64,000 nt of DNA, from IMG/VR virus record IMGVR_UViG_3300025759_000061, positions 1 through 64,000 of that record; one strand, written 5' to 3'. Positions 1,703 through 48,253 of this stretch are shown here, in pieces. The stretch comes from a virus. The translations under genes were made by a program, and so were the position numbers. Under the pieces are notes generated by a model. The model made no database searches. It had not been told where the DNA came from and worked only from the letters and a program-made list of their open reading frames with translations. Position 1 is the first letter of the stretch. The number at the start of each line of letters is the position of its first letter.

Positions 1703-1724
1703 TTCATCATAGGAGAACACAATC

Positions 1725-3163: not shown

Positions 3164-3168
3164 GACCA

Positions 3169-3444
3169 ATGGCTGATAGATTTTCAAGAGATGAAGTTCT
3201 CATAGATTCACCAGCAGCATCTGGATTTGTCATCACGGCAAATGATACAGTTAATCTGGAACAAACAACCCGTGGTATATACGTTGGTGTTGCTGGAGAT
3301 ATTGGTATTCAGTTTTCTGGATATTTTGGACAGTCAAATGTAAATATTTTGTTTACAAATGTTCCTGTTGGTATTCTTCCAGTTCGTGCTGATCGTGTTC
3401 ATGCAGCTAATACAACAGCAACCGGTCTTATTGGTTTATACTAA
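3169..3444 (+). CDS. Spike base protein, RCAP_Rcc01079-like
   Basis: 91 residues. The pattern RGIYVGVAGDIGIQF, a central FTNVPVGILPVRADRV and a terminal TTATGLIGLY match the small spike base protein family seen in Rhodobacter gene transfer agent clusters and alphaproteobacterial phages. Known members sit at the base of head spikes or fibres. It overlaps the downstream LamG-domain gene by one base, consistent with base and adhesin being made together. The location inside the head operon is unusual for a T4-type phage and supports an alphaproteobacterial host. Confidence 0.75.
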   Translation: MADRFSRDEVLIDSPAASGFVITANDTVNLEQTTRGIYVGVAGDIGIQFSGYFGQSNVNILFTNVPVGILPVRADRVHAANTTATGLIGLY

Positions 3445-4280: not shown

Positions 4281-4293
4281 AAGAACTTGAAAG

Positions 4294-4301
4294 CATAAAT
4301 A
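4294..4301 (+). promoter_or_regulatory. Late promoter core CATAAATA
   Basis: CATAAATA precedes ATG 4307 by only 5 bp, so the transcript leader would be very short or the promoter would mainly serve gp21. Assigned by similarity to other late cores in the window. Confidence 0.4.
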
Positions 4302-4306
4302 AGAAC

Positions 4307-4687
4307 ATGAACATTGTCAAACACATAACGTCTAACAATCTGGTAGAGGCTAAACAGGAAATCGATGATCTTCTGTTTGAGATGGCTCAACAGAAACTTG
4401 TTGAAGTTCGTAAAATGATATCTGTGTCTGACTGGGTTATTGAAGAAGGCCGGTTCAAGATTGTTCGTGCCAAGGTCCGGAATGGTAAAATTCTGAGACG
4501 GCACAAAGAAGCTGCCATGGATGGCTTCACCATGAGAGGTGGCAAGGTCACCAAGATGTCTCCGACCGAAAGACGGAAGAGACGGCTCTCCCAGAGAAAG
4601 GGTGCTCGTAAGAGAAAAGCCAAGAGAGTGCAAACCAGAGTAAACACAAAGAAGGCCCTTCGTAAAAGAAGAAGCATGGGGATTTAG
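4307..4687 (+). CDS. Putative prohead core protein (gp68-like)
   Basis: 126 residues, immediately before gp21, the position of T4 core gene 68. The N-terminal half (1-45) is an amphipathic helix pattern with LVEAK, QKLVEVRK and SDW that is shared with the 1725-2525 product. The C-terminal third is extremely basic (RRKRRLSQRKGARKRKAKR near residue 84). Proteins of this architecture lie before the prohead protease in other T4-like phages and are taken as scaffold core components. The start follows the first ATG; the stop codon abuts ATG 4688. Confidence 0.6.
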   Translation: MNIVKHITSNNLVEAKQEIDDLLFEMAQQKLVEVRKMISVSDWVIEEGRFKIVRAKVRNGKILRRHKEAAMDGFTMRGGKVTKMSPTERRKRRLSQRKGARKRKAKRVQTRVNTKKALRKRRSMGI

Positions 4688-5350
4688 ATGGCTAAGTTAA
4701 TCAAAGAAGAAATCGACGTGTCCAACATGGACTTCATCGTCGAATCCGTGGGTGGTAAGAAAAACTACTTCATCCGTGGTATCTTTATGCAGTCTGAGCA
4801 GAAGAACCGTAATGGTCGTATCTATCCAAAGTCACTACTCCAGAGAGAAGTGGCCCGATACAACAACAACTATGTGACCGAAAACCGTGCATTCGGTGAA
4901 CTGGGTCATCCAGACTCCCCGACAATCAACCTTCCACTCGTGTCACATGTGATGACCAAGCTTACTGAAGATGGAAACAACTTCATTGGTGAGGCTAAAA
5001 TCCTTGATACACCAAACGGCAAGATTGTCAAGACCCTTATTGATGAGGGTTGTAAAATGGGTGTTTCTTCACGTGGTGTTGGCACACTTAAGGAATCCAA
5101 CGGGTGTAAGCTCGTTCAGGATGATTTCTACCTATCCACAGCAGCCGATATCGTAGCAGACCCATCTGCCCCAGAAGCCTTTGTGCAAGGCATTATGGAA
5201 GGAAAAGATTGGGTTATGTCTCCGAAAGGGTGGACAGAATTCGACTACGACTCTGCCAAGAAAAACCTCAGAGAGGCAAAAATGGCAGATTTCGAAGATC
5301 GGGCAGTAAAAATCTTTGAGAATTTCCTGTCTAAAATACAAAATTCCTAA
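4688..5350 (+). CDS. gp21: Prohead core protease (gp21)
   Basis: Homologue of T4 gp21, the serine protease (peptidase family U9) inside the prohead that degrades the scaffold and trims capsid proteins at I/L-x-E sites. The 220-residue length matches T4 gp21 (212). The catalytic histidine is in GELGHPD (His74) and the nucleophile region is MGVSSRG (Ser127/Ser128). The gene sits between a gp68-like gene and gp22, as in T4. Its stop codon region contains the CTAAATA late core for gp22. Confidence 0.95.
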   Translation: MAKLIKEEIDVSNMDFIVESVGGKKNYFIRGIFMQSEQKNRNGRIYPKSLLQREVARYNNNYVTENRAFGELGHPDSPTINLPLVSHVMTKLTEDGNNFIGEAKILDTPNGKIVKTLIDEGCKMGVSSRGVGTLKESNGCKLVQDDFYLSTAADIVADPSAPEAFVQGIMEGKDWVMSPKGWTEFDYDSAKKNLREAKMADFEDRAVKIFENFLSKIQNS

Positions 5351-5353
5351 ATA
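5347..5353 (+). promoter_or_regulatory. Late promoter core CTAAATA before gp22
   Basis: CTAAATA overlaps the gp21 stop codon and is 27 bp upstream of the gp22 ATG, followed by the strong site AGGAG. It fits late expression of the scaffold. Confidence 0.65.
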
Positions 5354-5379
5354 AAAAGAGAACAATAGGAGATAAACCA

Positions 5380-6513
5380 ATGCCGACTCTTAAAGAAGCA
5401 GCAGCAGACGTTCTTCACGGCAATGTGAAGAAGAAAAAAGGACAGGCCGACAAGGCTGAAAGACTACCGGGTGAGGTTCAAGACCTTGGTAAAGCAGTAG
5501 TGGAACCTGATGAGTCAGAAGGTCCAGATGCTTCCGTTGGTGTTAAAAAAGACTCTTCAAAGTCTTCCACAACCAAAGTAAAGGGTGAAGGCCGTAAGAA
5601 GTCCCAGAGCCTGAAGGGTGATATGCAGGAAGAAGAAGAGCTAGATGAAGACATCCTTGATGAGGATGGAAATCCAATCGATGATGATCCAGAGCTTAAC
5701 GAAGCATATGACGAAGACGATGATGAAGACCTAGAAGAAAACTGGGAAATCGACGTTCCATCTATCGATGATATTGAGCTTGATCTCTCTGAAGACATTG
5801 CAGCCATGTTTGGTGAAGGTGACTTCTCAGATGATTTCATGGAAAGAGTTTCAACAGTATTTGAAGCAGCAGTTCGTGCAAACGTCAAGAGATACGAAAA
5901 TGATCTTAAGGAAGCTTTTGAAGAAGCCCTTGATGACACTGTTGTGAGCATTCAGGAATCACTTGAATCAGATGTTTCAGACTATCTGGAATATGTTGCT
6001 GAGAGTTGGGTTGCAGAAAATGAAGTTGCAATCGAATCTGGTGTACGTAACGAGATTTCGGAAGACTTCATTAACGGTCTGAAGAACCTGTTCACTGAAC
6101 ACTATATCGACATCCCAGATGACAAGGTTGATGTTGTTGAAGAATTGTCTGAAAAGATTGCCGAACTCAAGGAAGAACTTGATGAGCAGATTGAAGTCAA
6201 TGTTGAAATGAACTCTGTGATCAAGGAACATGTAAAAGCTGAAGCATTCTATACGGTTGCAGAAGGTCTTACAGAAACTCAGACAGAAAAACTTCGTACA
6301 CTTGCCGAAGAGATTGATTTCAAAGACTACGAAAGCTTTACAAAGAAGCTTGAGAACGTCAAGGAAAGCTATTTCAGCAAGAAGACTGGTGGATCATCTG
6401 CACGTCAGCTTGATGAAGAAGTAATTCAAAATCCAGAGCTTGGTAAGGTTGAAGATATGTCAGGACGTATGGCAGCATACTCCAGCATGTTGAAAAAGAC
6501 CCGTGCTGAGTAA
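5380..6513 (+). CDS. gp22: Prohead core scaffold protein (gp22)
   Basis: 377 residues in the conserved order gp21-gp22-gp23. The first 130 residues are highly acidic and low complexity. The remainder is predicted helical and coiled, as for T4 gp22, which forms the major internal core and is digested by gp21. The last residues MSGRMAAYSSMLKKTRAE resemble the conserved C-terminal end of gp22 proteins. It is longer than T4 gp22 (269), mainly through the acidic N-terminal extension. Starts after AGGAGATAAACC. Confidence 0.9.
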   Translation: MPTLKEAAADVLHGNVKKKKGQADKAERLPGEVQDLGKAVVEPDESEGPDASVGVKKDSSKSSTTKVKGEGRKKSQSLKGDMQEEEELDEDILDEDGNPIDDDPELNEAYDEDDDEDLEENWEIDVPSIDDIELDLSEDIAAMFGEGDFSDDFMERVSTVFEAAVRANVKRYENDLKEAFEEALDDTVVSIQESLESDVSDYLEYVAESWVAENEVAIESGVRNEISEDFINGLKNLFTEHYIDIPDDKVDVVEELSEKIAELKEELDEQIEVNVEMNSVIKEHVKAEAFYTVAEGLTETQTEKLRTLAEEIDFKDYESFTKKLENVKESYFSKKTGGSSARQLDEEVIQNPELGKVEDMSGRMAAYSSMLKKTRAE

Positions 6514-6527
6514 AGATTCTGAAATCT

Positions 6528-6534
6528 CTAAATA
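6528..6534 (+). promoter_or_regulatory. Late promoter core CTAAATA before gp23
   Basis: CTAAATA lies 57 bp before the major capsid ATG, leaving an A-rich leader and the site GGGAG. This is where T4 also has its strong gene 23 late promoter. Confidence 0.7.
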
Positions 6535-6591
6535 ATTATAACAATAACAGATACAACCGTCGATAAGAACAAAAACAAGGGAGACAAACCA

Positions 6592-7908
6592 ATGTATCTT
6601 ACTGAAGAGCTACAAAACAAATGGGCACCGATTCTAGAGCATGAGTCTGTTAACCCTATTAAAGACCCCTACAGACGGGCTGTTACTGCAATGATTCTTG
6701 AGAATCAGGAAACAGCCATGCTGAAGGAATCTGCACCAACAAACAACTACGGTGATGGTAATATCAATTCATATGACCCTATCCTGATTTCACTTGTTCG
6801 TCGTGCAATGCCTAATCTTATTGCATATGACGTTGCCGGTGTGCAGCCAATGACTGGACCAGTTGGTCTGATCTTTGCAATGAGAAGCAAGTATGTATCA
6901 CAGACTGGTACAGAAGCCCTGTTCAACGAAGCAAACTCACTGTTTGCTGCACAGAACTCTGGTGGTGGACTTACCGGTGTGGGCCTTAACCCTGCTGATG
7001 TTGCTAATACCAACCCAGTATCGGGTGATGCAATCACAACCAACACTGCATTTGGTGTAGGTACAGGGATGTCAACAGCACAGGCTGAAGCTCTTGGTGA
7101 TAGTGCTGGTAACCATTTTGCTGAAATGGCATTTGCAATCGATAAAGTATCGGTTACTGCAAAGAGCCGTGCACTCAAAGCTGAGTACACAATGGAACTT
7201 GCACAGGACCTTAAGGCTATTCATGGTCTTGATGCTGAAACTGAGCTTGCAAACATTCTGTCAACAGAAATCCTTGCAGAAATCAACCGTGAAGTTATCC
7301 GTACAATCTATCACACAGCTACCCGTGGTGCTCAGACGAACACTACAACTGCTGGTACGTTTGACCTCGACACCGACTCAAACGGTCGTTGGTCAGTTGA
7401 AAAATTCAAGGGATTGATTTTCCAGATTGAACGTGAAGCCAATGCTATTGCTCGTGCAACAAGACGTGGTAAGGGTAACGTAATGATCGTTTCCTCTGAC
7501 ATTGCTTCTGCTCTTTCAATGGCTGGTGTTCTGGACTATACCCCAGCACTTAATGCCAACCTGTCAGTTGATGACACAGGCAACACCTTTGCAGGTACAA
7601 TGCACGGTCGTATGAAGGTCTATATTGATCCTTACTTCGGTGGAACAGCAAACGGTGATGAGCTTGTTTGTGTAGGCTACAAGGGTACATCCCCTTACGA
7701 TGCTGGACTGTTCTATTGCCCATACGTTCCTCTCCAGATGGTTCGTGCCGTTGGTGAGAACACCATGCAGCCTAAGATCGGCTTCAAGACACGTTACGGT
7801 ATGGTAGCCAACCCATATGCAACCTCTGCTGGAACTGGTGTGATCGAAGACTTCGTGAACCATGCAAACATCTACTACAGACTTTTCCGGGTGAGGAACT
7901 TGATGTAG
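6592..7908 (+). CDS. gp23: Major capsid protein (gp23)
   Basis: 438 residues, HK97-fold major head protein of the T4 gp23 family. Family signatures include NSYDPILISLVRRAMPNLIAYD split over residues 61-82 and GVQPMTGPVGLIFAMRSKY (about 84-102). The propeptide probably ends after LKE46 (MLKE|SAPTN), an L-x-E prohead protease site as in T4 gp23. It is shorter than T4 gp23 (521), like cyanophage and alphaproteobacterial homologues. A strong factor-independent terminator follows, so transcription is largely closed after this gene. Confidence 0.97.
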   Translation: MYLTEELQNKWAPILEHESVNPIKDPYRRAVTAMILENQETAMLKESAPTNNYGDGNINSYDPILISLVRRAMPNLIAYDVAGVQPMTGPVGLIFAMRSKYVSQTGTEALFNEANSLFAAQNSGGGLTGVGLNPADVANTNPVSGDAITTNTAFGVGTGMSTAQAEALGDSAGNHFAEMAFAIDKVSVTAKSRALKAEYTMELAQDLKAIHGLDAETELANILSTEILAEINREVIRTIYHTATRGAQTNTTTAGTFDLDTDSNGRWSVEKFKGLIFQIEREANAIARATRRGKGNVMIVSSDIASALSMAGVLDYTPALNANLSVDDTGNTFAGTMHGRMKVYIDPYFGGTANGDELVCVGYKGTSPYDAGLFYCPYVPLQMVRAVGENTMQPKIGFKTRYGMVANPYATSAGTGVIEDFVNHANIYYRLFRVRNLM

Positions 7909-37013: not shown

Positions 37014-37169
37014 ATGATAAACCTCTATATTCTATTACTGTACTATTTCGGCTTTATCTATCAAGGATATTACAAGGTAAGTAAGTTTTCCAAGAAAATC
37101 TGGTTGAAATACTTCTACAAACATGATAAACGAGTGCTTGAATATTCAAAACATATGGATAGAAAATGA
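37014..37169 (+). CDS. Small membrane peptide in glycan cassette
   Basis: 51 residues, hydrophobic and aromatic first half (MINLYILLLYYFGFIYQGYYK) and basic second half. AGGGG upstream. Possible one-TM peptide; translation not certain. Confidence 0.45.
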   Translation: MINLYILLLYYFGFIYQGYYKVSKFSKKIWLKYFYKHDKRVLEYSKHMDRK

Positions 37170-37173
37170 AACT

Positions 37174-38043
37174 ATGAAAAAACTTAGACTTGGATTTTCG
37201 TCAACATTCGGCACGGCTGAAAAATTCTTCACTGGTGTGTTGGGTGAGAGATATCATGTTGAAGTAGTCAAACCCGAAGAGTGTGACTATCTGATTTTCG
37301 GTGATCCGAATTTTGGTGAAGAACACTACAAGTATCAGAACTGTGTCCGTATCCTGTACACGGGTGAGAATTTCCGTCCAAATTACTGGACCTATGACAG
37401 GGCCATAACGTTTGACCATGAGAACTCACCAAAGCATTACAGACTGCCTCTATACGTACCAGAGATGCATATGTACAAGGCAGAGGGTGTTACGAGTGAT
37501 GTTCTACACCTGAATAGTTTGTTGAGCAAAACTGATGCTGATGTGCCGTCCGGGTTCTGTACGTTTGTCCAGTCCAACCCAAACCAGCCTATCCGGAATC
37601 ATTTTGTTGAGACATTGAGTAAATACAAACAGGTTGATTGTGGTGGACCCTTGTTCAATAATATTGGATATGTCCTGCCACGTGATGACCCACGTCACAA
37701 GATGGATTTCGTAAAGCAACGTAAATTCAATATAGCATTTGAGAATGGTACATATCCCGGTTATGTCACTGAGAAGATTCTGGATGCTCTATATGCAGGG
37801 GTGATTCCAATTTATTTCGGTAGCTCGTTTGTCCACCGTGACTTCAATCCAGACAGATTTATCAATGTCCATGACTACACCAATTTCAATGAGGTTGTTG
37901 AGGTGGTCAAGGAAATTGATTCCGATAGAAGCAAGTGGTTGAAGATGGTAAATCAACCCGTGTGGAAAAATAACGTCCCACCAGCTTGTGTGAATACCGA
38001 TAACTTCCTAGATTGGTGGGAGACGTTTGTGCATTATGGATGA
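37174..38043 (+). CDS. Family GT10 alpha-1,3-fucosyltransferase-like
   Basis: 289 residues. The GT10 donor signature KFNIAFENGTYPGYVTEKIL (about 186-205) followed by ALYAGVIPIYFGS is diagnostic of fucosyltransferases acting on LPS or glycans. The N-terminal Rossmann-like half has DYLIFGDPNFG. A fucosyltransferase suggests mimicry or alteration of host surface glycans. Confidence 0.88.
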   Translation: MKKLRLGFSSTFGTAEKFFTGVLGERYHVEVVKPEECDYLIFGDPNFGEEHYKYQNCVRILYTGENFRPNYWTYDRAITFDHENSPKHYRLPLYVPEMHMYKAEGVTSDVLHLNSLLSKTDADVPSGFCTFVQSNPNQPIRNHFVETLSKYKQVDCGGPLFNNIGYVLPRDDPRHKMDFVKQRKFNIAFENGTYPGYVTEKILDALYAGVIPIYFGSSFVHRDFNPDRFINVHDYTNFNEVVEVVKEIDSDRSKWLKMVNQPVWKNNVPPACVNTDNFLDWWETFVHYG

Positions 38044-38053
38044 GGATATGAAA

Positions 38054-38329
38054 ATGGTTACCAAAGCAGAATTCGTTGATATGTGGCTTGATGATCTTCT
38101 AGTAGAGAAGGTCATATCCGTGTCACGGTTTATGACAGATGATGGTCGGGAGAAAATCCGTGAGGTTTACCTGATTAGAGGTCTGTTCTATGTTATGGAA
38201 TGGACCAGTAGTGGTGTGCCGTCTGTGATGTCTGATCTTGTGAATCAGGGTGAGTTTACCTTTGCCCGTGTTGTTCCATACACAAAAACAACAACAGATT
38301 ACAGGATGGTGGAGATTATCAATGACTGA
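38054..38329 (+). CDS. Unknown small protein
   Basis: 91 residues, MVTKAEFVDMWLDDLL..., no recognised domain. GAGG is spaced for ATG 38054; upstream in-frame ATG codons at 38036 and 38048 overlap the fucosyltransferase gene. Overlaps next gene by 8 bp. Confidence 0.6.
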   Translation: MVTKAEFVDMWLDDLLVEKVISVSRFMTDDGREKIREVYLIRGLFYVMEWTSSGVPSVMSDLVNQGEFTFARVVPYTKTTTDYRMVEIIND

Positions 38330-38717
38330 ATTTCAGCTTGATCTTGTGGATTACATAAAAGCACTGCCTGATGAGGATAATGATTGTCCAAATCCATCTG
38401 AGAAATCCACTGTTCTCTTCCGGGTTCTTCATGAGGATCATAGGGATAGACCAACTGTCGATATCTATGCATATGAAGGTGGTGGTGCTGATTATGAAGA
38501 TAATTATGGGCCGGGGCTTGACTATACAGTCGAAGGTGTGTTAGAAGACGGAATCAAGGAAGGCTTCTATGTGATAGAAGGTCTTTATATGGTCTACTCA
38601 ACCGATTATTGTGGTGATGTGGATGCCGACACAGAATTTGACAATATGAGACCGGCTGAACAGAAAGACTGGTATCATTTTGGTGTAAAACCAGAGGATG
38701 GTGGATATGAGCTATAG
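38322..38717 (+). CDS. Unknown acidic protein
   Basis: 131 residues, strongly acidic (GGGADYEDNYGPGLDYTVEG in the middle), with no recognised domain. GGAG upstream of ATG 38322. Overlaps the next gene. Confidence 0.6.
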   Translation: MTEFQLDLVDYIKALPDEDNDCPNPSEKSTVLFRVLHEDHRDRPTVDIYAYEGGGADYEDNYGPGLDYTVEGVLEDGIKEGFYVIEGLYMVYSTDYCGDVDADTEFDNMRPAEQKDWYHFGVKPEDGGYEL

Positions 38718-38964
38718 AGAAACTGTTTCAGAAGCCCGTGAATTTTGGGGTGATGAGTTTGATAGCATGTTTATGACTATTGAAGATTTCACAGATGCAT
38801 GTGAAGAAGGTGCTTTCGTTGATTATGATGGACATGGACAGTGGGTAATTGGTGATCAATTGGTAGGTATGTCTGATGTCATCCATGGTGCTGCCATGCC
38901 GTCGAAGGTCCTGACTGGACAGATTCCAGAGGGTACAACCCATGTGATGTGGTACAATAAATGA
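38707..38964 (+). CDS. Unknown small acidic protein
   Basis: 85 residues, MSYRETVSEAREFWGDEFDSM..., with HGQWVIGDQLVGMSDVI in the middle. No family. Stop overlaps the glycosyltransferase start by 4 bp (ATGA). Confidence 0.6.
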   Translation: MSYRETVSEAREFWGDEFDSMFMTIEDFTDACEEGAFVDYDGHGQWVIGDQLVGMSDVIHGAAMPSKVLTGQIPEGTTHVMWYNK

Positions 38965-39998
38965 ACACTCCAAAAAATATCCTGTTTGTAGTCCACCGGT
39001 ATGCTCCATTTCCGGGTGGTTCTGAATATTACACACAACAAATGGCTGAAGAAGCTCTGGCACGTGGCCACACGGTTACAGTGCTCACAGGAGAGCATAG
39101 GGCCGTTCAGGGTAAGCATAATGGTGTGTGGGTGGTGGATAACCCTACTGAGACGTTAAACCGTCAGTGGGACCTTATTGTGGTCCATGGTGGTGATGTC
39201 CATATGCAGAACATTGTCCACCAACACTCATTCAACATCCGGTCACCAATCCTGTACATGATCATCAAGCCGTCAAACTCTGATATATGTATGCATGGGA
39301 TGAGGTTTTCAGATTTCCTTGGATACTCCACCGTGGCTGATCTGAATCATATTGCCAATGCCGGGTATCTCGACAAGGCAAGAAGAGTCAGACATGGTAT
39401 CAAAATGGGTGATGCTATATCAGCACCTGAAGCTTATATGAATCGTGATTTTGTGAAAGAGGATGTGCCATACTTCGTTTCGGCTGGTGGTTTTTATCCA
39501 CACAAGGCTATGACGGAATTAGCTGATGCTTGGAACTTTTCTCCTATTGATGCTAAACTGGTACTCTATGGATATGGTATGCCTGAGAATGCACCACAAC
39601 AAACTGATCAAGTACGGGTGATCACGGATGCAGAATTTGATGAAGTTCAGTGGGCCATCCACAAATCCAATGGTTATATACTAAATTCCTATGAAGAAGG
39701 GTTTGGGTTGGTTCTGCTTGAGGCTATGTATCATAGTGTGCCATGGTTTGCTCGTAAAACACCGGGTGCTCTCAAACTTCAGAAGCATGGATTCGTGTAT
39801 GACTCAGAACCTGAGTTGATGGAATTTATTGAGTATGTATATCAGGATGATGACAGAGACTGGTGGAACTGTGTGGGTATGGATAATTATTTCAACGAAT
39901 ATGAAGGTTATCGGTATGTGGTTCAGAACCATTCGATAGGTTGCACGGTTGATGATATCGAAGATGTCCTGATCGAACTTGACAAGAGGAAGTGGTGA
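38961..39998 (+). CDS. Glycosyltransferase family 1/4-like (GT-B)
   Basis: 345 residues. N-terminal YAPFPGGSEYYTQQMAEEAL (Gly-rich acceptor loop) and C-terminal E-x7-E motif in NSYEEGFGLVLLEAMY (about 235-250), with GGFYPHKAMTEL marking the start of the donor domain. A retaining GT4 type fits best. Confidence 0.88.
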   Translation: MNTPKNILFVVHRYAPFPGGSEYYTQQMAEEALARGHTVTVLTGEHRAVQGKHNGVWVVDNPTETLNRQWDLIVVHGGDVHMQNIVHQHSFNIRSPILYMIIKPSNSDICMHGMRFSDFLGYSTVADLNHIANAGYLDKARRVRHGIKMGDAISAPEAYMNRDFVKEDVPYFVSAGGFYPHKAMTELADAWNFSPIDAKLVLYGYGMPENAPQQTDQVRVITDAEFDEVQWAIHKSNGYILNSYEEGFGLVLLEAMYHSVPWFARKTPGALKLQKHGFVYDSEPELMEFIEYVYQDDDRDWWNCVGMDNYFNEYEGYRYVVQNHSIGCTVDDIEDVLIELDKRKW

Positions 39999-39999
39999 T

Positions 40000-40800
40000 A
40001 TGTTTATTGGAATTTGTGCAGGTCCGACAACGGACATAGAGACACTTGATAAATGTATCGGGTCGGCTATTAGTCAATTTGATATGCCTCATGGTATGGT
40101 GGCTGTGATTGGTTATAGGGAACTGATCGATCAATCGAAGCATATGGGTTCGTTCTATCCATATTATTATGATGAACCACGAAAGGGTTGGATCACACAG
40201 AAGAAGAATCTTCTGGTCAACGTGGCCCATGAGTATGGATTTGACAAAGTGTGTCTGGTCCATGACTATTATGAATTTCAACCGGATTGGGTTGATAAGA
40301 TATTAAAATGGTGGGATGATAACGATCACATCCAAGTCGTGGTCAATCCAATATACACCATGGAAGGTGAGAGACATTCAGACTGGTTGTTGGATCAGAG
40401 ATTCGTTACGGCTATGTTGGAACGTCAACCACAACTGAGAAACCTTTTCATGCAGGTTGCACCCAATGAAAATGATCCAAAGTATGTCTGTGGTGTGCCG
40501 TATGAAGTTCAAGACATGACAAACATGCAATACATCTCCGGTGGGATGATCACTGCAAACATAGAAGTTCTTCAAGCAATTCCATTGGATGAATCCAGAT
40601 GTTGGGGTGATGAAGAGGATATCGAGTGGTCCCAGAGACTTCGTGGTGCCCGGATCAAGATAGGGTTGTGTATGGACACATACACGAAGTTGTTGAAACC
40701 CAATAAGTGGCACTTGTATGAAATGCCACAAGAAGGGTTGAATGCAATGAGGGATATGTTTATATGCATACCAGTTCCAGAAGGTAAAAAATACTCATGA
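40000..40800 (+). CDS. Glycosyltransferase-like (GT-A)
   Basis: 266 residues. N-terminal beta-alpha pattern (FIGICAGPTTDIETLDKCI), a possible metal site VHDYYEFQPDWVD, and GDEEDIEWSQRL (about 205-216) typical of the GT2 catalytic acidic loop. The D-x-D is not canonical, so the call rests on overall pattern and context. Confidence 0.65.
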   Translation: MFIGICAGPTTDIETLDKCIGSAISQFDMPHGMVAVIGYRELIDQSKHMGSFYPYYYDEPRKGWITQKKNLLVNVAHEYGFDKVCLVHDYYEFQPDWVDKILKWWDDNDHIQVVVNPIYTMEGERHSDWLLDQRFVTAMLERQPQLRNLFMQVAPNENDPKYVCGVPYEVQDMTNMQYISGGMITANIEVLQAIPLDESRCWGDEEDIEWSQRLRGARIKIGLCMDTYTKLLKPNKWHLYEMPQEGLNAMRDMFICIPVPEGKKYS

Positions 40801-41498
40801 AAATATTTGCTATAGGTGACATACACGGAATGTTTAACGTGTATATGAAAGCACGTGAATGGATAGAGACACAGATGGAGCCTGAAGACCATGTGGTGTT
40901 TCTGGGTGATCTGATTGATCGTGGTCCGGAATCTGCATTGGTTGTAAAGTCGGTACGTGAGTGGGAGCCGGTGGGAACCAAGCATGTCGTGATGGGTAAT
41001 CATGAAATGTTCATGTGGGATAGTGGGTTGGAAGACTCATGGATGATGAATGGGGGTAGGGAAACTCTATTCTCATATCAGCAATTGTATACAGATTCTA
41101 AAGCTGAGAGGGAAGCTTTCCTATCGGATGTTGTATGGATGAAAAACCTTCCATACTATGTCACGTTTGGTGACAACCATGAAGTGATCTGTGTTCATTC
41201 CAATTTCCTGCCAGTGTATCTTGAGGGTGAAAATACACCAGAACAGAAGGATACAATGCTGTGGTCCAGAAACTACATGAATGTGCCGGTTCCGGGTGCT
41301 GTTGTTGTCCATGGTCACACACCGATCAGCAAGGAGCCGTATCATCGTGTGATTATACAAACGTTTTTATCAAAGGATGGTGAGTTGAGGGTTGATGAGG
41401 GTCGTCTTAATATTGATGGGGGTGCTGTGTTTGGTGGTAAGCTTTGTGTTGCAGTTTTTGATGATCTGAGATGTGTAGAGGTGAAAACATTTGATTAA
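40797..41498 (+). CDS. PPP-type metallophosphoesterase
   Basis: 233 residues. GDIHGMF (6-12), GDLIDRGPES (about 37-46), GNHEMFM (about 68-74) and VHGHTP (about 165) are the PPP-family metal motifs, as in lambda protein phosphatase and bis-nucleosyl tetraphosphatase. Substrate unknown: phosphoprotein, Ap4A or a sugar phosphate intermediate. Overlaps its neighbours. Confidence 0.88.
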   Translation: MKIFAIGDIHGMFNVYMKAREWIETQMEPEDHVVFLGDLIDRGPESALVVKSVREWEPVGTKHVVMGNHEMFMWDSGLEDSWMMNGGRETLFSYQQLYTDSKAEREAFLSDVVWMKNLPYYVTFGDNHEVICVHSNFLPVYLEGENTPEQKDTMLWSRNYMNVPVPGAVVVHGHTPISKEPYHRVIIQTFLSKDGELRVDEGRLNIDGGAVFGGKLCVAVFDDLRCVEVKTFD

Positions 41499-42876
41499 CA
41501 CATACAACAAGCTTATCATATTCGATCTTGATGGGGTGTTGATAGACTCACGTGAAATCCACTACGAAACCCTGAACATGGCTCTAGCTGAGATAGCTGA
41601 TGACTTTGTTATTACTCGTGAAGAGCATCTATCACGTTATGACGGTTTATCCACATCCAGAAAACTGAAGATGTTGACAGATGAGAAGAATCTGCCAGAA
41701 CATTATCATGGTCATATATGGAGAAGTAAACAACATTACACCAAGGAATTTCTACTGAACAAGACCAAGAAGAACCTGTATCTGATCGGGTTGTGTAGCT
41801 GGATAAAGCTGAACGGCTACAAACTGGCATGTGCTTCAAATGCAATCCGTGAAACGGTTGAAACTTCCCTGAAGTCTCTTGGAATTCTGGAATACTTTGA
41901 CTATATGGTATCTAATCAGGATGTGGAAAGATCGAAGCCATATCCTGACATGTACTGGAAGTGTATGATAGAATGTAATGCAATTCCAGCATCTACAATT
42001 ATCGTTGAGGATTCTCATATCGGTCGTGAAGGTGCAGTGGCTTCCGGTGCACATCTTCTGGAAGTTGAGGACCCACGTGATTTGACACGTGAGAAAATCA
42101 TGAGTCAGATGGAATGGCTCGACATGAAGCAGAGTGGACAGATCAAAATGAAATGGAATGACAATAAGCTGAACGTGTTGATCCCCATGGCCGGAGCCGG
42201 TTCCAGATTTGCTGATGCCGGTTACACGTTTCCAAAGCCATTGATTGAGGTCAAAGGTAAACCAATGATCCAGTTGGTTGTGGAGAACCTTAACATTGAG
42301 GCCAATTTTATCTACATTGTCCAGAAGGAACACTACAAGAAATACAATCTCAAATACATGTTGGAATTGATCACACCGGGTTGTGAGATAATTCAGGTTG
42401 ATGGGGTGACTGAGGGTGCTGCCTGCACGACTCTGTTGGCCAAGAACCTGATCAACAACTCAAATCCACTATTGATCTGTAACTCAGACCAGTATATAGA
42501 GTGGGATTCCAATGAATGTATGTATGCATTCAAGGCTGATGGGATTGATGCCGGGATACTGACATTCAAATCAACACATCCAAAATGGTCATATGCCAAG
42601 GTGGGTGATGATGGATTCGTATCAGAGGTGGCTGAGAAGCAACCAATATCTGACAATGCAACAGTTGGTTTGTATTATTGGTCACATGGTAAGGACTATG
42701 TGAAGTTTGCTGAACAGATGATTGAGAAGGATATCCGGACCAATGGTGAGTTCTATGTGTGCCCTGTCTTTAATCAAGCCATAGAAGCCGGTAAGAAGGT
42801 CCGTGTCAAGCAGATAGACCGTATGTGGGGGATTGGTACTCCGGAAGACCTAAACACGTTCTTGAGGGATAATTAG
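41491..42876 (+). CDS. HAD phosphatase - sugar nucleotidyltransferase fusion
   Basis: 461 residues from TTG 41491, supported by GAGGTG upstream. The N-terminal HAD domain (1-215) has LIIFDLDGVLIDS (8-20), ASNA and the motif IV VEDSHIG. The C-terminal nucleotidyltransferase (about 225-461) has LIPMAGAGSRFADAGYTFPK and SDQYIEW. Together they could dephosphorylate a sugar bisphosphate and activate the sugar-1-phosphate to an NDP-sugar, like the separate GmhB and HddC steps of heptose pathways. Substrate is inferred. Confidence 0.85.
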   Translation: MINTYNKLIIFDLDGVLIDSREIHYETLNMALAEIADDFVITREEHLSRYDGLSTSRKLKMLTDEKNLPEHYHGHIWRSKQHYTKEFLLNKTKKNLYLIGLCSWIKLNGYKLACASNAIRETVETSLKSLGILEYFDYMVSNQDVERSKPYPDMYWKCMIECNAIPASTIIVEDSHIGREGAVASGAHLLEVEDPRDLTREKIMSQMEWLDMKQSGQIKMKWNDNKLNVLIPMAGAGSRFADAGYTFPKPLIEVKGKPMIQLVVENLNIEANFIYIVQKEHYKKYNLKYMLELITPGCEIIQVDGVTEGAACTTLLAKNLINNSNPLLICNSDQYIEWDSNECMYAFKADGIDAGILTFKSTHPKWSYAKVGDDGFVSEVAEKQPISDNATVGLYYWSHGKDYVKFAEQMIEKDIRTNGEFYVCPVFNQAIEAGKKVRVKQIDRMWGIGTPEDLNTFLRDN

Positions 42877-42891
42877 ATGATGAAGCTATGA

Positions 42892-42920
42892 TTGACGAAA
42901 ACCCGGCCCACCTTTATGTA
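42892..42920 (+). promoter_or_regulatory. Sigma70-type promoter
   Basis: TTGACG, 17 bp, TATGTA just after the fusion gene, with ATG 42932 twelve bases downstream of the -10. Confidence 0.5.
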
Positions 42921-42931
42921 TAGGATTGAAC

Positions 42932-43264
42932 ATGACTGAAAAATTTGTAACACCAGAACCACTACCAACACCATATGAACGTGAGCTTCTAACCATCCTT
43001 ATTGAAGAAGCTGCTGAAGTGCAGCAACGTGCTACCAAGATGTTGAGATTTGGTATACACGAAGTTCAACCCGGCCAACCACATACGAACCGGGAACGTC
43101 TGTCTATTGAATTGGGTGATTTGATGGCTGTTATCACAATGTCTCTGGAACCGGATGTGGATTTGATAAATGCAGCAATAGTAGAAAATCAGATTGAAAA
43201 GAAAATTATAAAGCTTGAGAAGTTTATGCAATCAAGTAAGCCAGAGGATGTCGTGGATGACTAA
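42932..43264 (+). CDS. MazG-like NTP pyrophosphohydrolase
   Basis: 110 residues. Helical MazG-type metal site: EEAAEVQQRATKMLRFG (about 23-39) and ELGDLMAVITM (about 66-76), the E-x2-E and E-x2-D pairs. MazG-like phage enzymes cleave NTPs or (p)ppGpp-like nucleotides. Second helix pair is compact; probably a dimer or tetramer. Confidence 0.75.
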   Translation: MTEKFVTPEPLPTPYERELLTILIEEAAEVQQRATKMLRFGIHEVQPGQPHTNRERLSIELGDLMAVITMSLEPDVDLINAAIVENQIEKKIIKLEKFMQSSKPEDVVDD

Positions 43265-43859
43265 AAACATATTCGAGATTGGTGTTAACACCGGCTCAGA
43301 CACACAGCCGTTACTGGACAAATACCCGACACACACATATTACGGATTTGAACCCACACGGGAATTGGTATCCCAAGCATTGTGGCCCAAATTCAATGAC
43401 CCACGAGTCAATATCATCCCAATGGCTGTTGATATTGAGGATGGTTTCAAGACGTTCAATATTGCCGGTCAGGGTGACTGGGGCTGTTCTAGTCTTTATG
43501 AGTTTGATGAGAAAATCCACGAGAAGTGGGAAAACCGGTCAGACTTCAAGATGACTCATTCCTATCCTGTACCGTGTATGAGATTGGAGACGTTCATTGA
43601 AGTGTTCAAAATAGAGGGTGATATTGACTACATGTGGATTGATGCACAAGGTAATGATTACAATGTGCTGCTATCTATGGGCCATTACATAAACGATCTA
43701 AAAGCCGGTCGGCTGGAATGTGCTTACACGGTTGAACTGTATCAGGGTACGGGCAACAATCTGTCTAATGTTACGAAATACTTGGACTTCTGTGGGTTCA
43801 AGTATGATGTAAAACCGGATGACGTGGGTAAGGAATGTAATGTGGAGTTTTATAGATGA
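43257..43859 (+). CDS. FkbM-family methyltransferase-like
   Basis: 200 residues. NIFEIGVNTGSDTQPLL (SAM motif I), YYGFEPTRELVSQ (acidic residue and FkbM-type EP), and MRLETFIEVF...DYMWIDAQGNDYNVL (the FkbM IDxQG block). FkbM enzymes O-methylate sugars or polyketides; consistent with the glycan cassette. Confidence 0.8.
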   Translation: MTKNIFEIGVNTGSDTQPLLDKYPTHTYYGFEPTRELVSQALWPKFNDPRVNIIPMAVDIEDGFKTFNIAGQGDWGCSSLYEFDEKIHEKWENRSDFKMTHSYPVPCMRLETFIEVFKIEGDIDYMWIDAQGNDYNVLLSMGHYINDLKAGRLECAYTVELYQGTGNNLSNVTKYLDFCGFKYDVKPDDVGKECNVEFYR

Positions 43860-44329
43860 AGATATACAGCCATCGTGGAAATCTGGATGGGTCAAACAGA
43901 CAATGGGAAAATCATCCAAGCCAAATCAACAAAGCAATATCTGCTCAATTTAATGTAGAGATTGATTTTTGGTATGTAGAGGGTGAATGTTGGCTTGGCC
44001 ATGACTTTCCGGAACATAAGGTTTCTTGGGATTTCCTTGCCCAGATCAAGTATCAGGTGATTCTACATGCCAAGAATGTTGAAGCATTGGGTTTCCTCTC
44101 AAACAAAGATGCCCACTATTTTTGGCATGATACTGATGATTACACCCTAACATCATGGGGTTGGGTATGGATGCATCCACTTGCCCATTCTACGGGGAAG
44201 GGTTACACAAATATGACGATATTAGCACTGCCTGAAAACTCAGCTTCTGACTTTGATCAGGATTTTTACACAAATATTGGTGGTGTGTGCACAGATTACC
44301 CTGAACGTTGGAGAGAAAAAAGATTATGA
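43856..44329 (+). CDS. Glycerophosphodiester phosphodiesterase-like
   Basis: 157 residues. YSHRGN (4-9) and VEIDFW (about 34-39) with WLGHDFP (about 46-52) match the GDPD catalytic H..E.D..H pattern; TDYPERW near the end is the usual final strand. Shorter than typical GDPD enzymes (about 240), so a minimal barrel or partial protein. ATGA overlap with preceding gene. Confidence 0.7.
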   Translation: MKIYSHRGNLDGSNRQWENHPSQINKAISAQFNVEIDFWYVEGECWLGHDFPEHKVSWDFLAQIKYQVILHAKNVEALGFLSNKDAHYFWHDTDDYTLTSWGWVWMHPLAHSTGKGYTNMTILALPENSASDFDQDFYTNIGGVCTDYPERWREKRL

Positions 44330-45579
44330 TTGTATCTATAATTGGGGCTGGTGGTCATGTGGGGATTCCGTTCTCACTGGTGTGCTCACGTCCAGATAAC
44401 ATTGTGTATGGAATAGACCTGTCTCAGGAACGGGTCAGTCAGTTGAACCGGGGTGAGATGCCTTTCATTGAAGAAGGTGGTCAGGAACAGCTTAAAAAGT
44501 ATGTTGGAAGCAACCTGTTCTTCACAACCGAATACGACTCTCTCAAAAAGTCTGATATTATTGCTATCATGATCGGTACACCGGTTGATGATGAAGGTAA
44601 CCCACGTATTGATGACATCATGGAGTTGGCCGACACAATTGGAACAGCCATTGCCGAAAACATCAAGTCTGGTGGGACCAAGGCCATAATACTAAGATCG
44701 ACAGTTGCACCCGGCACTACACGTCTTTTCAAAAAACGGCTGTTCAATAAGATCAACTACTATGGTGGTGTGCCAATGTTACAGATCAAAAACCGGGTAG
44801 ACGTTTACTTCATCCCAGAACGTGTTGCACAGGGTAAGGGGTTGGTGGAGACTACCAAACACCATTGGATGATTGGGGTCGATCCTGATGAAGAGGGTGT
44901 GGGTGTTCATGCCAAACTTTGGGAGTTCATCAAAACTCTTGGGGTTGTGTATAAATTCATGCCATATGAAGCTGCTGAAATCGGCAAGCTGATGACCAAT
45001 ATGTACCGTTATGTGAATTTTGCATTTGCCAACGAAATGTACATGGTGTGTAAGCAATATGACGTTGATGCATTTGAGATGATTGAGGACTTCAATGAGG
45101 GGTATGAAAGACTTGATGTTCCCAAGCCGGGACCAAACGTGGGTGGGCCGTGCCTATTCAAGGATGGTAAATTCCTTACTACAAAATTTGCTTTCCCTGA
45201 ACTGATAAGCACAGCTTTCCATATCAATGAGAGTATGCCGGAATTTGTTTATGATCAGATGATGATCAAGGCTGCACGTGTTGGAAAAACTATTGACCGG
45301 GTTTTGATTCTTGGTGCTGCTTTCAAGGCTGAGTCTGATGATATTCGAAACTCACTATCATACAAATTCAAGAAGATTTGTAAGAGGCACGGCTTGAAAG
45401 TGACCATGTATGACCCATATGTTGAAGGAATGATCCAAGCTCGTACACATCTTCTGGTGAGTGGTGTGGATGCTGTTGTGGTTATGACACCACACAAGGT
45501 ATTCGATAAAGAATGGTTCCAGTGGCACTTGCCGATGATGTCACCCGGTGTGATTACATACAATCCATGGAAAGAATAG
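44326..45579 (+). CDS. UDP-sugar (glucose/ManNAc-type) 6-dehydrogenase
   Basis: 417 residues. Rossmann motif IIGAGGHVGIPF (4-15), substrate Glu/Lys regions, and catalytic Cys in VGGPCLFKDG (about 270-279). C-terminal domain with LILGAAFKAESDDIRNS. Four-electron oxidation of a UDP-sugar to a uronic acid. Full length. Confidence 0.93.
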   Translation: MIVSIIGAGGHVGIPFSLVCSRPDNIVYGIDLSQERVSQLNRGEMPFIEEGGQEQLKKYVGSNLFFTTEYDSLKKSDIIAIMIGTPVDDEGNPRIDDIMELADTIGTAIAENIKSGGTKAIILRSTVAPGTTRLFKKRLFNKINYYGGVPMLQIKNRVDVYFIPERVAQGKGLVETTKHHWMIGVDPDEEGVGVHAKLWEFIKTLGVVYKFMPYEAAEIGKLMTNMYRYVNFAFANEMYMVCKQYDVDAFEMIEDFNEGYERLDVPKPGPNVGGPCLFKDGKFLTTKFAFPELISTAFHINESMPEFVYDQMMIKAARVGKTIDRVLILGAAFKAESDDIRNSLSYKFKKICKRHGLKVTMYDPYVEGMIQARTHLLVSGVDAVVVMTPHKVFDKEWFQWHLPMMSPGVITYNPWKE

Positions 45580-45581
45580 AC

Positions 45582-46652
45582 ATGAAAAAAATTATAGTGT
45601 GTGGCTCTGATGGCAGTTTGATGAGTCACATCATCAAAACCCTTGGATGGTTCAAGACAGACTACCATATCATGGGGATCGACAATCTGTCCCGGCACGG
45701 TAGACGTAATCAGAACCTGACAGATGATGACTGTTTGTTCATGGAAGCAGACCTGACAAATCGTAGAGTCGTTATGGACCTGTTCACAGCATACCAGCCG
45801 GATGTTATCATTCAGGGTGCTGCAACCATTTACGGTGTTGGGGGCTTCAATAGATTTGCTGCTGATATTTTGGGTCGTGACACAGCTATCAATGCAAACT
45901 GTTTGGAAGCTGCTGCCACATGCACAGATGTTGAGAACTTCGTTTTCATCTCATCGTCTATGGTTTATGAGAGTGTATCTATTGGACTCATTCCTTCACA
46001 TGAATCCCACATGTATGATTACAAGGGCAGTAACATACATCCACCCATTCCAAAGACTGATTATGGTTTGAGTAAGGTGGTGAACGAAAGAATGGTCAGG
46101 GCATACAATAAGCAATATGCTTTACCGTATTCTATCTGGAGACCATTCAATATCATAACACCATATGAAACTGCTGGGGAATCATTGGGTGATTCCCACG
46201 TGTTTGCTGATTTCTTTAACACGATCTTGATGAATAGAGAGCACCGTCTTGACATTATAGGTGATGGAAATCAAGTCCGGTGCTTCACATGGATTGATGA
46301 TGTGATTGAACCAATTATCGATACTCTGGAGCATCCTACAAACACGGCCATGAATATTGGTAACCAAGAGCCAATCACCATGAGAGAATTGGCTATGATT
46401 ATTCGTGAGGTTGGAATGGAGAAGGGTTATCTACCACCTAGTTTTCCACCACTAGAATTCAATACTTCAAAGTCCTATCCGGATGATGTTAAATACAGAG
46501 TACCGGCTGTTGAGAATATCAAACATAAGCTTGGTTGGAAAGCCAAGGTGAAGGTTCGGGAATCTATAAGTAGATGTGCCGACTATTTGATAAGTACATT
46601 ACCCTTATATGAAGATAACTCACTGGGTATAGGAATAAGAGAAGTGGAATAA
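45582..46652 (+). CDS. NAD-dependent nucleotide-sugar epimerase/dehydratase
   Basis: 356 residues. Divergent Rossmann start VCGSDGSLMSHIIK, SDR catalytic SSSMVYES and YGLSK (about 120-165), IWRPFNI and the substrate loop. Last gene of the glycan cassette. The Gly motif is GSDGSLM rather than G-x2-G-x2-G, which is unusual. Confidence 0.88.
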   Translation: MKKIIVCGSDGSLMSHIIKTLGWFKTDYHIMGIDNLSRHGRRNQNLTDDDCLFMEADLTNRRVVMDLFTAYQPDVIIQGAATIYGVGGFNRFAADILGRDTAINANCLEAAATCTDVENFVFISSSMVYESVSIGLIPSHESHMYDYKGSNIHPPIPKTDYGLSKVVNERMVRAYNKQYALPYSIWRPFNIITPYETAGESLGDSHVFADFFNTILMNREHRLDIIGDGNQVRCFTWIDDVIEPIIDTLEHPTNTAMNIGNQEPITMRELAMIIREVGMEKGYLPPSFPPLEFNTSKSYPDDVKYRVPAVENIKHKLGWKAKVKVRESISRCADYLISTLPLYEDNSLGIGIREVE

Positions 46653-46657
46653 TAAAG

Positions 46658-47122
46658 ATGACAAAATCTACAATATTCTTTGTATTGTTCAGTATTTCCA
46701 ATCTTCTAGCAATCTTCTGGTTAGGTTATTTTGACATATACTCATGGATAGCTTCCAAAGACATCACTTATATTTCATTCCTTATCGGGGTTGTCTATAT
46801 GGCAACCCTTCTATCTTTCTTTTTTGAGATTAGATCAGGGAAAAATAGTGATGATGTCTTTGAGTTGCAGATGTTCATTGCAAACCATCTACCAGCACTT
46901 GGGTTGTTGGGGACGGTGATTGGGTTGATGATATCAGTGGAGTCCATATCCACAATCAAGATCGATCCAAATGAGCAGACAGAGATTATTGAGATGATGC
47001 AGAATATCTTCCTAGCACTATCAACGGCTCTTCTGACAACTATTGTTGGGTTGATAACCAGTCTGTTACTCAAGGGGCAATTGGTAGTAATGAACATGGT
47101 GCATTCCCATGAAGTTGAGTAA
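46658..47122 (+). CDS. MotA/TolQ/ExbB-family proton-channel-like membrane protein
   Basis: 154 residues, about four hydrophobic segments (5-25, 37-57, 78-98, 115-138). The family signatures are LPALGLLGTVIGLM (78-91) and ALSTALLTTIVGL (120-132); Thr86 and Thr127/128 occupy the places of the channel threonines in TolQ/ExbB. Shorter than TolQ (230), mainly in the cytoplasmic loop. It overlaps a partner with an ExbD/MotB-like single TM, so the pair could form a proton-driven stator. Confidence 0.8.
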   Translation: MTKSTIFFVLFSISNLLAIFWLGYFDIYSWIASKDITYISFLIGVVYMATLLSFFFEIRSGKNSDDVFELQMFIANHLPALGLLGTVIGLMISVESISTIKIDPNEQTEIIEMMQNIFLALSTALLTTIVGLITSLLLKGQLVVMNMVHSHEVE

Positions 47123-47756
47123 AGAGACTGGGGCCAGCAACATATTTTCAGACATGTTGTTCACTGTCCTGTTCATGGTCATTGTATCGTTCGTTCTGGC
47201 TATTCTGTTGATCAATCCAATATCCAAAGATGAGGGCAACATCATCAAACGTGCTGAGTATTTCATTGAGATGGAATGGCCGGATGATATCGATTGTGAT
47301 GTTGACTTATGGGTGCAGGGTCCCGACAAAGGGAAGCCGATCCATTTCCTGTACCTCAACAACAAATACATGCATCTGGAACGGGATGATCAGGGAATCA
47401 GAACTGATACGTTTAGTCCATCTGGAAGTAAAAGAAAAATTCAAGGTGAAGAAAATCGTGAGGTGTGGACACTGAGAGGGATGGTCCCCGGTGAATACAT
47501 TGTTAATGGACATCTGTATAAATGTAACGGATCAAATGCCTATCAAACTGGTGTACCGATTACCGTGCCGGTTAAACTGAGAGTGGTTAAAATAAACCGG
47601 TATAGGATTGTCCATATGGTTAAAAAGGTTTTCGAGATGACATGGCAGGAAAAAACCTTTGTCAGGTTCAGGTTGGATAATGACGGATTCTTTGTCAATC
47701 AGGGTGATGATTTCATACCAATAGTGAAGCTTGGAGCCGGGGAGACATTACGATGA
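47109..47756 (+). CDS. ExbD/MotB-like single-TM protein with periplasmic beta domain
   Basis: 215 residues. Short cytoplasmic N-terminus, then Asp15 immediately at the start of one transmembrane helix (16-37), as the protonatable Asp in ExbD, TolR and MotB. The periplasmic part (about 50-215) is beta-rich with CDVDLWVQGPDKGKPI, YMHLERDDQG, REVWTLRGMVPGEYIVNGH and no OmpA-like peptidoglycan-binding signature. Overlaps the channel gene by 14 bp and the third gene by 4 bp. Confidence 0.75.
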   Translation: MKLSKETGASNIFSDMLFTVLFMVIVSFVLAILLINPISKDEGNIIKRAEYFIEMEWPDDIDCDVDLWVQGPDKGKPIHFLYLNNKYMHLERDDQGIRTDTFSPSGSKRKIQGEENREVWTLRGMVPGEYIVNGHLYKCNGSNAYQTGVPITVPVKLRVVKINRYRIVHMVKKVFEMTWQEKTFVRFRLDNDGFFVNQGDDFIPIVKLGAGETLR

Positions 47757-48253
47757 TCGATTTTTTGATGGTGATATTCTTCTCGTTCATAGCCTTGTTC
47801 ATTCTTTGGATGATCATGGTGGGTAGGATGTCAACCCATGTTATCATGCTGGGTGTGCTGCTTATTGTGGCTGCTACGGGGAATTACTGGTCACTGATGA
47901 CATACAGGGGTTTCCCCACAACAGCCGTGATGGGTAAAGACAATTCAATGATATGGGCTTCTATCAAGGACCCTACACCCAAAAACCCGGATGGGTTGAT
48001 TTATGTGTGGGTCTATGATCCAGATCGTGAAACCACACGTGTAGAAGAACTGTTGCACCTGAATTTCAACAGTAAGCCACGGGCTTATGAAATCCCATAT
48101 ACGAAAGAAAGTGCCAAGGAACTTAGGGAAGCCATGAAGAAGAAGATGAAGGGTTTTGGTGTCCTGTTGGGTTTGGAACTGGATGGGACGGGTGATAAAA
48201 TACCGAAGCTGAAGATACAGACTATCGATCCCTATGAAATTTTGCCTAAATAG
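47753..48253 (+). CDS. Third membrane protein of the ExbB/ExbD-like cassette
   Basis: 166 residues. Two N-terminal transmembrane helices (about 2-22 and 28-48) and a soluble domain with MIWASIKDPTPKNPDGLIYVWVYDPD and an amphipathic SAKELREAMKKKMKGFG. Not recognised. Its coupling by ATGA to the ExbD-like gene indicates one complex. The stop overlaps a CTAAATA late core. Confidence 0.7.
   Translation: MIDFLMVIFFSFIALFILWMIMVGRMSTHVIMLGVLLIVAATGNYWSLMTYRGFPTTAVMGKDNSMIWASIKDPTPKNPDGLIYVWVYDPDRETTRVEELLHLNFNSKPRAYEIPYTKESAKELREAMKKKMKGFGVLLGLELDGTGDKIPKLKIQTIDPYEILPK
48246..48252 (+). promoter_or_regulatory. Late promoter core CTAAATA
   Basis: CTAAATA in the Pro-Lys-stop of the cassette's last gene. 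Directly followed by a sigma70-type promoter at 48257, so both would drive tRNA-Leu and downstream RNAs. Confidence 0.5.

Follow-up and report, generated by a model that had tools for sequence, protein, structure and literature searches.

A three-gene cassette with a MotA/TolQ/ExbB-family channel subunit in phages and bacterial genomes

Channel proteins of the MotA/TolQ/ExbB families and their MotB/TolR/ExbD partners form 5:2 ion-driven motors. To our knowledge, only a few kinds of ion-driven stators are understood, namely those of the flagellum, the Tol and Ton systems, gliding, and Zorya. Can a phage carry a stator of another kind, and what would it be used for? The question is raised by a locus in a stretch of viral DNA (the window), which comprises the first 64,000 of the 118,833 bases of a virus record. 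A sequence-only reading of the window described three overlapping genes at 46658-48253 as a stator-like cassette of a T4-type phage. The coordinates are correct, and the likeness to stators is borne out by the channel family of the first protein, the Asp-bearing single-TM partner, and the strict three-gene synteny. Our literature search found no paper on the three-gene cassette, though some papers could have been missed; the available parts of PMC10460002 (phage AP-16-3), PMC12429752, and PMC6630229 do not mention it.

The cassette and its genomic surroundings

All three genes are encoded on the plus strand. Gene A (46658..47122) encodes a channel subunit of the MotA/TolQ/ExbB family (154 aa, Pfam PF01618) with a short loop between TM2 and TM3. 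Gene B (47109..47756) encodes an ExbD/TolR/MotB-like partner of 215 aa with a large periplasmic beta domain. Gene C (47753..48253), whose homologues also follow B, encodes a protein of 166 aa from no known family with a C-terminal domain that is probably periplasmic. A overlaps B by 14 nt, and B overlaps C by 4 nt. Hydropathy predicts four TM segments in A of the window, one in B, and two in C, the last in agreement with the earlier description of C as a two-TM protein.

The label “T4-type” is supported for the phage of the window, which has T4-type head genes (matches to portal, scaffold, and major head protein) at 35-7,908. The cassette itself is not T4-specific: the temperate Rhizobium phage 16-3 and phages of 59-69 kb carry it too, and bacterial genomes encode it as well. 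Positions 37123-46652 of the window are occupied by surface-glycan genes (GT10 fucosyltransferase, GT1, phosphatase, nucleotidyltransferase, FkbM methyltransferase, UDPG dehydrogenase, and epimerase), and 5 nt separate the start of A from the stop of the epimerase gene that closes this run. The promoter motif TATAAATA has two matches in the window against 1.8 expected, none of them near the cassette, and sigma-70-like sites are not above chance.

The location of the cassette varies by lineage. Some phages of the group of phage 16-3 (the 16-3 group) carry it a few kb after endolysin-like genes, whereas in window-like contigs and in Pootjesviridae it is found near genes of DNA metabolism: the contigs most similar to the phage of the window have it after a PhoH gene and a PD-(D/E)XK-like gene, and four Pootjesviridae records have it between a gyrA/topoisomerase gene and a late sigma factor gene, beside SbcCD-type genes. 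A GH19-type endolysin-like gene lies 3-5 kb upstream of the cassette in seven loci (six of the 16-3 group and locus L055); its Pfam match is above the cut-off in L055 and below it in 16-3, and an Rz1-like gene of locus L070 is below the cut-off as well. In Rhizobium phage I1_18, a gene with a von Willebrand A domain is located about 2 kb after C (L004:8832-10265).

Recurrence of the trio in phages and bacterial genomes

Searching 50,697 phage records by tblastn, we found A in 16 and B in 27 of them, while C gave no match. All of the B matches and 15 of the 16 A matches belong to Rhizobium or Sinorhizobium phages; the 27 B-positive records annotate the cassette as hypothetical or unnamed proteins. 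A profile search with B yielded 62 loci in IMG/VR contigs, including a 161,858-base contig (L012) with a B identical to that of the window, and four in genome contigs. By profile, all members of a redundant set of 78 sources have B, while A and C are present in 76 each; the two sources without A are contigs starting inside B, and one case of missing C is explained by a contig end. Dropping near-duplicates and B fragments shorter than 150 aa gave 47 representatives, including L076, a prophage-type locus from a Rhizobium genome. All 47 representatives have A, and 45 have C; one of the two remaining loci reaches the contig end, and the other (L055) has a C-like ORF that overlaps B, as judged by eye only.

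The three genes recur together, in the same order and on the same strand, in distant loci whose proteins have about 13-38% identity to those of the window, so their co-occurrence is more than chance. Gaps of at most 10 nt separate A from B in 27/47 representatives and B from C in 20/45, with start codons chosen by a script. Wider gaps occur mostly in the 16-3 group, in which other small genes are interposed, some of homing-endonuclease type. Genes of the latter type lie between A and B in L007, L009, and L061 and between B and C in L008. The cassette of phage 16-3 consists of p038, p040, and p042; a small hydrophobic protein, p041 (61 aa, L001:6525-6710), is encoded between B and C and is a possible fourth membrane part. 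Pairwise distances correlate over the whole set (r=0.90 for A/B, 0.95 for B/C, and 0.86 for A/C) and within the 16-3 group of 26 representatives (0.55-0.78); shared phage descent contributes to these correlations.

The idea of a phage-only system was dropped once searches of plasmids and genomes found cellular copies. B is encoded in seven Azospirillum records of a plasmid collection. In genome samples drawn at three taxonomic levels around a Rhizobium genome, it is present in 5/297 (family), 61/385 (class, i.e., alphaproteobacterial genomes), and 15/299 (phylum), with some genomes shared between the samples. We examined 39 cellular loci, i.e., 36 regions and L135-L137, leaving out the duplicate L216 and setting aside the protease-bearing L138 and L139 as phage-type. 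Subtraction of two large multidomain proteins gave 37 cellular loci, near-identical pairs being kept. A is found in 37/37 of them and C in 36/37 (L206 is without C). Conservation of the third gene together with the pair, which the sequence-only reading had set as a test, is thus observed in both phage-type and cellular loci.

The neighbours of eight loci (L135, L137, L182, L188, L192, L194, L195, and L199) were read and look chromosomal; we assume that the remaining cellular loci are not prophages either. Six cellular loci (L184, L186, L188, L189, L201, and L212) have a common lipoprotein-like gene directly after C, in one case with a sub-threshold DUF3108-like match. Behind C of L192, a locus of a large genome, there are a metallophosphoesterase and a Ser/Thr kinase with a Usp domain (L192:3746-5931). 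The large proteins of L217 and L218 (956 and 1,118 aa) hold a B-like domain, and no A or C was found near them.

In a midpoint-rooted FastTree tree of B, the 26 members of the 16-3 group (support 0.994) are placed with 16 cellular loci, and the other 21 phage representatives with the other 21 cellular loci. As phages fall in at least two places of this tree, it suggests at least two exchanges of B between phages and cells.

The three proteins and the accompanying protease

A of the window belongs to the Pfam family MotA_ExbB by its match to PF01618 (E=7e-9, 35.9 bits, the curated cut-off being 22.9), and 38 of the 47 representative A proteins match this family at E<=0.1. The best PDB matches of the 47-protein profile of A are ZorA (8qyy, E=8.7e-6) and MotA (8gqy, E=1.1e-5), with weaker matches to TolQ (0.028) and ExbB (0.059). 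NCBIfam models give 20.9 bits for TolQ and 17.3 bits for ZorA2, both far under the cut-offs (700 for ZorA2). The likeness to ZorA concerns the channel domain; the long cytoplasmic C-terminal tail of ZorA is absent from the 154-aa A, which ends about 16 residues past its last predicted TM segment.

Both threonine motifs reported earlier are present in A of the window: Thr86, of the GTxxG motif in TM3 (codon 46913..46915, plus strand), and Thr128 in TM4 (codon 47039..47041, plus strand). In the aligned representatives, position 86 is T in only 24/47 (N in 21, A in 2), so the claim of both motifs is limited to the window protein and does not describe the phage family as a whole. Position 128 is T in 38, N in 6, and S in 3. 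Cellular A proteins have T at position 86 in 34/37 and at position 128 in 37/37. G85 and G131 are invariant in the 47 representatives, and D35 is D in all 46 ungapped ones. Phage A proteins are 121-180 aa long (47 representatives). Their span from D35 to G85 has a median of 43 (range 41-75) in the 47 phage-type representatives versus 91 (range 42-128) in the 37 cellular loci (p=2.5e-14, uncorrected for relatedness). Thus A shares with MotA/TolQ/ExbB channels the Pfam family, the polar residue at position 128, and the A-B gene order, while phage A differs from them by the short TM2-TM3 span.

B has the trait of ExbD/TolR/MotB partners, namely a single N-terminal TM segment with a conserved Asp. 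This residue, Asp15 (codon 47151..47153, plus strand), the candidate ion-carrying residue, was pointed out in the earlier reading and is D in 47/47 representatives. Also invariant in all 47 are W57, D64, D66, R92, D93, D94, G96, E118, and E181. These nine periplasmic residues are found in 37/37 cellular B proteins, and the Asp15 column has D in 32 and V in 5 of them; by eye, L192 is among the loci with Val.

The periplasmic part of B is indeed beta-rich. The AlphaFold2 model (43 sequences, pLDDT 83) has a helix at residues 10-35 followed by an all-beta domain with 11 strands. Likewise, no peptidoglycan-binding domain of the ZorB type is matched by B (Pfam for window B and the 47 members; PADLOC models), and there is no match to ExbD/TolR or OmpA-type families (Pfam at E<=1 for window B; 23 families listed for the 47 members). 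Unlike the ExbD/TolR/MotB partners, B is predicted to have a TerD-like fold in this part (residues 48-209, 47250..47735, plus strand), as follows from comparison of the model with known structures. The top PDB match by Foldseek is 2qng (E=4.7e-4, with a TM-score of only 0.39 when scaled to query length), and the next is the TerD homologue 2qz7. VIA-align 2, which was run on the match list of Foldseek, aligned 141 residues to TerD 3ibz (Z 11.2, rmsd 3.5). It placed next 2qng (10.6), 2qz7 (10.3), 9a6r (9.7), 2kxt (9.7), and 7jtk (9.6), with Z <=6.0 from rank 7 onward. PDB titles of 2qng, 9a6r, and 7jtk do not name TerD; 2kxt is K. pneumoniae TerD, and its title names calcium binding. The invariant acids of B may bind Ca2+.

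The resemblance to the TerD family thus consists in the predicted fold (Z 9.7-11.2 to three TerD structures). Homology by sequence was rejected, as hhalign and HMM searches against 55 TerD domains performed no better than shuffled or reversed controls, and we therefore claim similarity of fold and not membership in the family. There is no match to Pfam TerD PF02342 and no significant TerD profile match for window B and the 47 members. B also differs from TerD in that it is membrane-anchored, with the domain probably in the periplasm. A viral structure library has no match to B at E<=0.001; in PHROGs, 2/47 B proteins hit the uncharacterised family phrog_1735 (best E 2.7e-5). Weak Pfam rows, i.e., a TcfC E-set in 11/47 (best E 0.026) and DUF2135 in one cellular B (E 0.066), were not used. 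The available part of a stator survey deals with ion transporters, both flagellar and generic, that bear varied appendages, and does not mention TerD (PMC12505986); that of PMC9389320 mentions neither TerD nor a protease, and phages only for an injection bearing.

The constant third protein, C, distinguishes the cassette from the two-part MotA/TolQ/ExbB motors. It has no significant relatives in Pfam, PHROGs, or PDB sequences, and in PHROGs no C protein of the set was matched at E<=0.01. The model of C (pLDDT 72) is weaker than that of B. No fold was assigned to it, the best Foldseek E being 0.52 and the best VIA Z being 5.3, to a helical pair; OB-type rows with Z of about 4 were ignored as too weak.

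A trypsin/HtrA-like protease is encoded near the cassette (up to 5-6 kb) in 30/47 representatives. Phages of the 16-3 group have it just upstream of A (p036 in phage 16-3), and in window-like contigs (e.g., L014, L016, L022-L030, L048, and L049) its start and the stop codon of C overlap. The same partners in two gene orders argue for a functional link between the protease and the cassette. Among the B-positive phage records, 26/27 encode the protease, which corresponds to 18/19 phages after GenBank/RefSeq doubles are joined. In the phage collection as a whole, several “phage” records (e.g., MW462191 and CAKLQF/CAKLQH) resemble bacterial contigs, with cytochrome c biogenesis genes, degQ, and degS, and inflate the counts of protease-positive records.

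The protease is not obligatory for the cassette, because it is absent from the complete record of phage I1_18 (also by profile) and was found neither in the 65-kb and 67-kb contigs G217 and G225 (by profile) nor near any of the 37 cellular cassettes. Conversely, a protease without A or B at E<=1 is encoded by phages phiM9 and KZY1 and, as a weak match (E=4e-4, 40% covered), by LP.1. A profile search of 17 records left 14 without the protease, of which 10 are shorter than 30 kb. As for the window's genome, the protease is encoded about 64 kb from the cassette, near 112,468-113,418 of G000 (computed, equal flanks taken), where it directly follows PhoH and a gene whose PD-(D/E)XK match stays below the threshold. 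Homologues of these two neighbours lie upstream of A on the same strand in 10 of 37 contigs examined, and 4/10 also have the protease after C; many of these 37 contigs are short fragments. Since these neighbours go with the protease in the window's genome and with A elsewhere, the cassette may have moved there while the protease stayed put.

His73 and Ser180 of the catalytic triad are invariant in 27/27 aligned proteases, and Asp103 is present in at least 90%. Inspected by eye, the N-termini look like signal peptides, lipoprotein signals, or TM anchors. The protease of the window's genome resembles DegS/DegP/HtrA in having Trypsin_2 and PDZ domains and matches TIGR02037 with E=6.8e-47. It differs in being phage-encoded and below the curated cut-offs of named NCBIfam HtrA/Deg models, and most 16-3-type copies stop short of the PDZ region. 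The protease is also matched by PADLOC models that include a trypsin-like part (best, RT-Protease_XI, 4.4e-22). According to the available part of PMC10783043, a trypsin-like serine protease and a PhoH protein are common to one cluster of alphaproteobacterial phages; ExbB, MotA, and TolQ do not appear there.

Possible functions of the cassette

Our preferred reading, to which we assign a probability of about 0.4, is that A-B-C is a phage-borne shortened ion-driven stator-type operon that acts on the envelope, most likely to exclude competing phages, and usually does so with the protease. A, probably in five copies, would enclose the TM helices of probably two copies of B, and ion flow past Asp15 of B and the polar residues of A would move B relative to A. 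The periplasm would then be the place of action of the predicted TerD-like, possibly Ca-binding domain of B, and C would be a constant partner in the inner membrane. A phage-encoded protease of exported type probably works alongside the cassette in most of the named phages. Its role would be an energised remodelling or surveillance of the envelope of the infected cell.

This reading is supported by the family of A, the conserved trio with its correlated distances, the conserved Asp, the predicted TerD-like fold, the co-occurrence with the protease, the existence of cellular relatives, and the shorter channel of phages. The incomplete conservation of T86 (24/47), Val at the Asp15 column in 5/37 cellular B proteins, the lack of TerD homology by sequence, and the non-obligatory protease count against it. 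As to function, we regard superinfection exclusion or envelope remodelling as the leading, unproven candidate with modest confidence. It is our first choice because of the neighbouring glycan genes, published proposals on Ter and glycan genes, the precedent of Zorya, and a protease of exported type. According to published proposals, Ter systems may shield phage-infected cells against superinfection, and surface-glycan genes may do likewise (PMC7824862, available part); the proposal on Ter deals with Ter systems and not with B. Zorya is a stator acting in phage defense, and its ZorB binds peptidoglycan (PMC11890865, available part). A bolder version, which we find doubtful, is that A-B-C is a distinct undescribed stator class of Pseudomonadota with a TerD-like periplasmic head. 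Phages would have acquired it on at least two occasions, cut down the cytoplasmic part of the channel, and joined it to an exported HtrA-like protease, producing a proton-powered machine for periplasmic proteolysis that closes the envelope to rival phages.

Several other explanations have to be weighed against exclusion of competing phages. The cassette could be an auxiliary device of transport or envelope homeostasis that, like Tol-Pal or ExbBD, goes on supplying energy to the outer membrane or to an uptake path during consumption of the host. A channel of the TolQ/ExbB/MotA/ZorA type is in line with this, and the presence of the trio in bacterial genomes with few shared neighbours would suit a general envelope function. 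However, bacterial hosts generally carry Tol and Exb already, inspection of the genes beside the cassette revealed no TonB-, Pal-, or TolB-like partner, and the protease is left unexplained, which makes homeostasis unlikely. We are more sceptical of a takeover or poisoning of the host, with the short phage A and B joining host stators (Tol, Exb, or host A-B-C) and jamming or redirecting them. The D35-G85 span of phage A is shorter than in most cellular A proteins, as might be expected of a dominant-negative subunit, but B and C are kept complete with their invariant residues, which a decoy would hardly need. Moreover, only 5/297 genomes from the family of the Rhizobium genome (G003) encode B, and 4/5 of these copies are phage-type with the protease, which means that such hosts usually lack a matching system on the chromosome.

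The endolysin-like gene upstream of the cassette in seven loci brings to mind a lysis module, i.e., a motor- or protease-driven disruptor of the envelope alongside holin, endolysin, and spanin. We hold this to be improbable, since A, B, and C match no lysis family, chromosomal copies of the trio exist, and the cassette is found near PhoH/PD-(D/E)XK-like genes in window-like contigs and near gyrA/topoisomerase and late sigma factor genes in the four Pootjesviridae records. Counter-defense against Zorya, in which the cassette would imitate ZorAB to block or titrate the system of the host, is the least credible explanation and has no specific support: ZorA is among the best profile matches of A, but MotA 8gqy is about as good in the PDB search, the TolQ model scores higher than ZorA2, which itself is far below its cut-off, and neither a ZorB-type domain in B nor the long tail in A was detected.

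The cassette, with its predicted TerD-like domain, points to a family of stators whose periplasmic output is different and which have a third subunit. With the short channels of phages, one can also ask what purpose the cytoplasmic part serves in stators. Because the classical phage 16-3 carries both the trio and the protease, the role of the cassette is directly testable.
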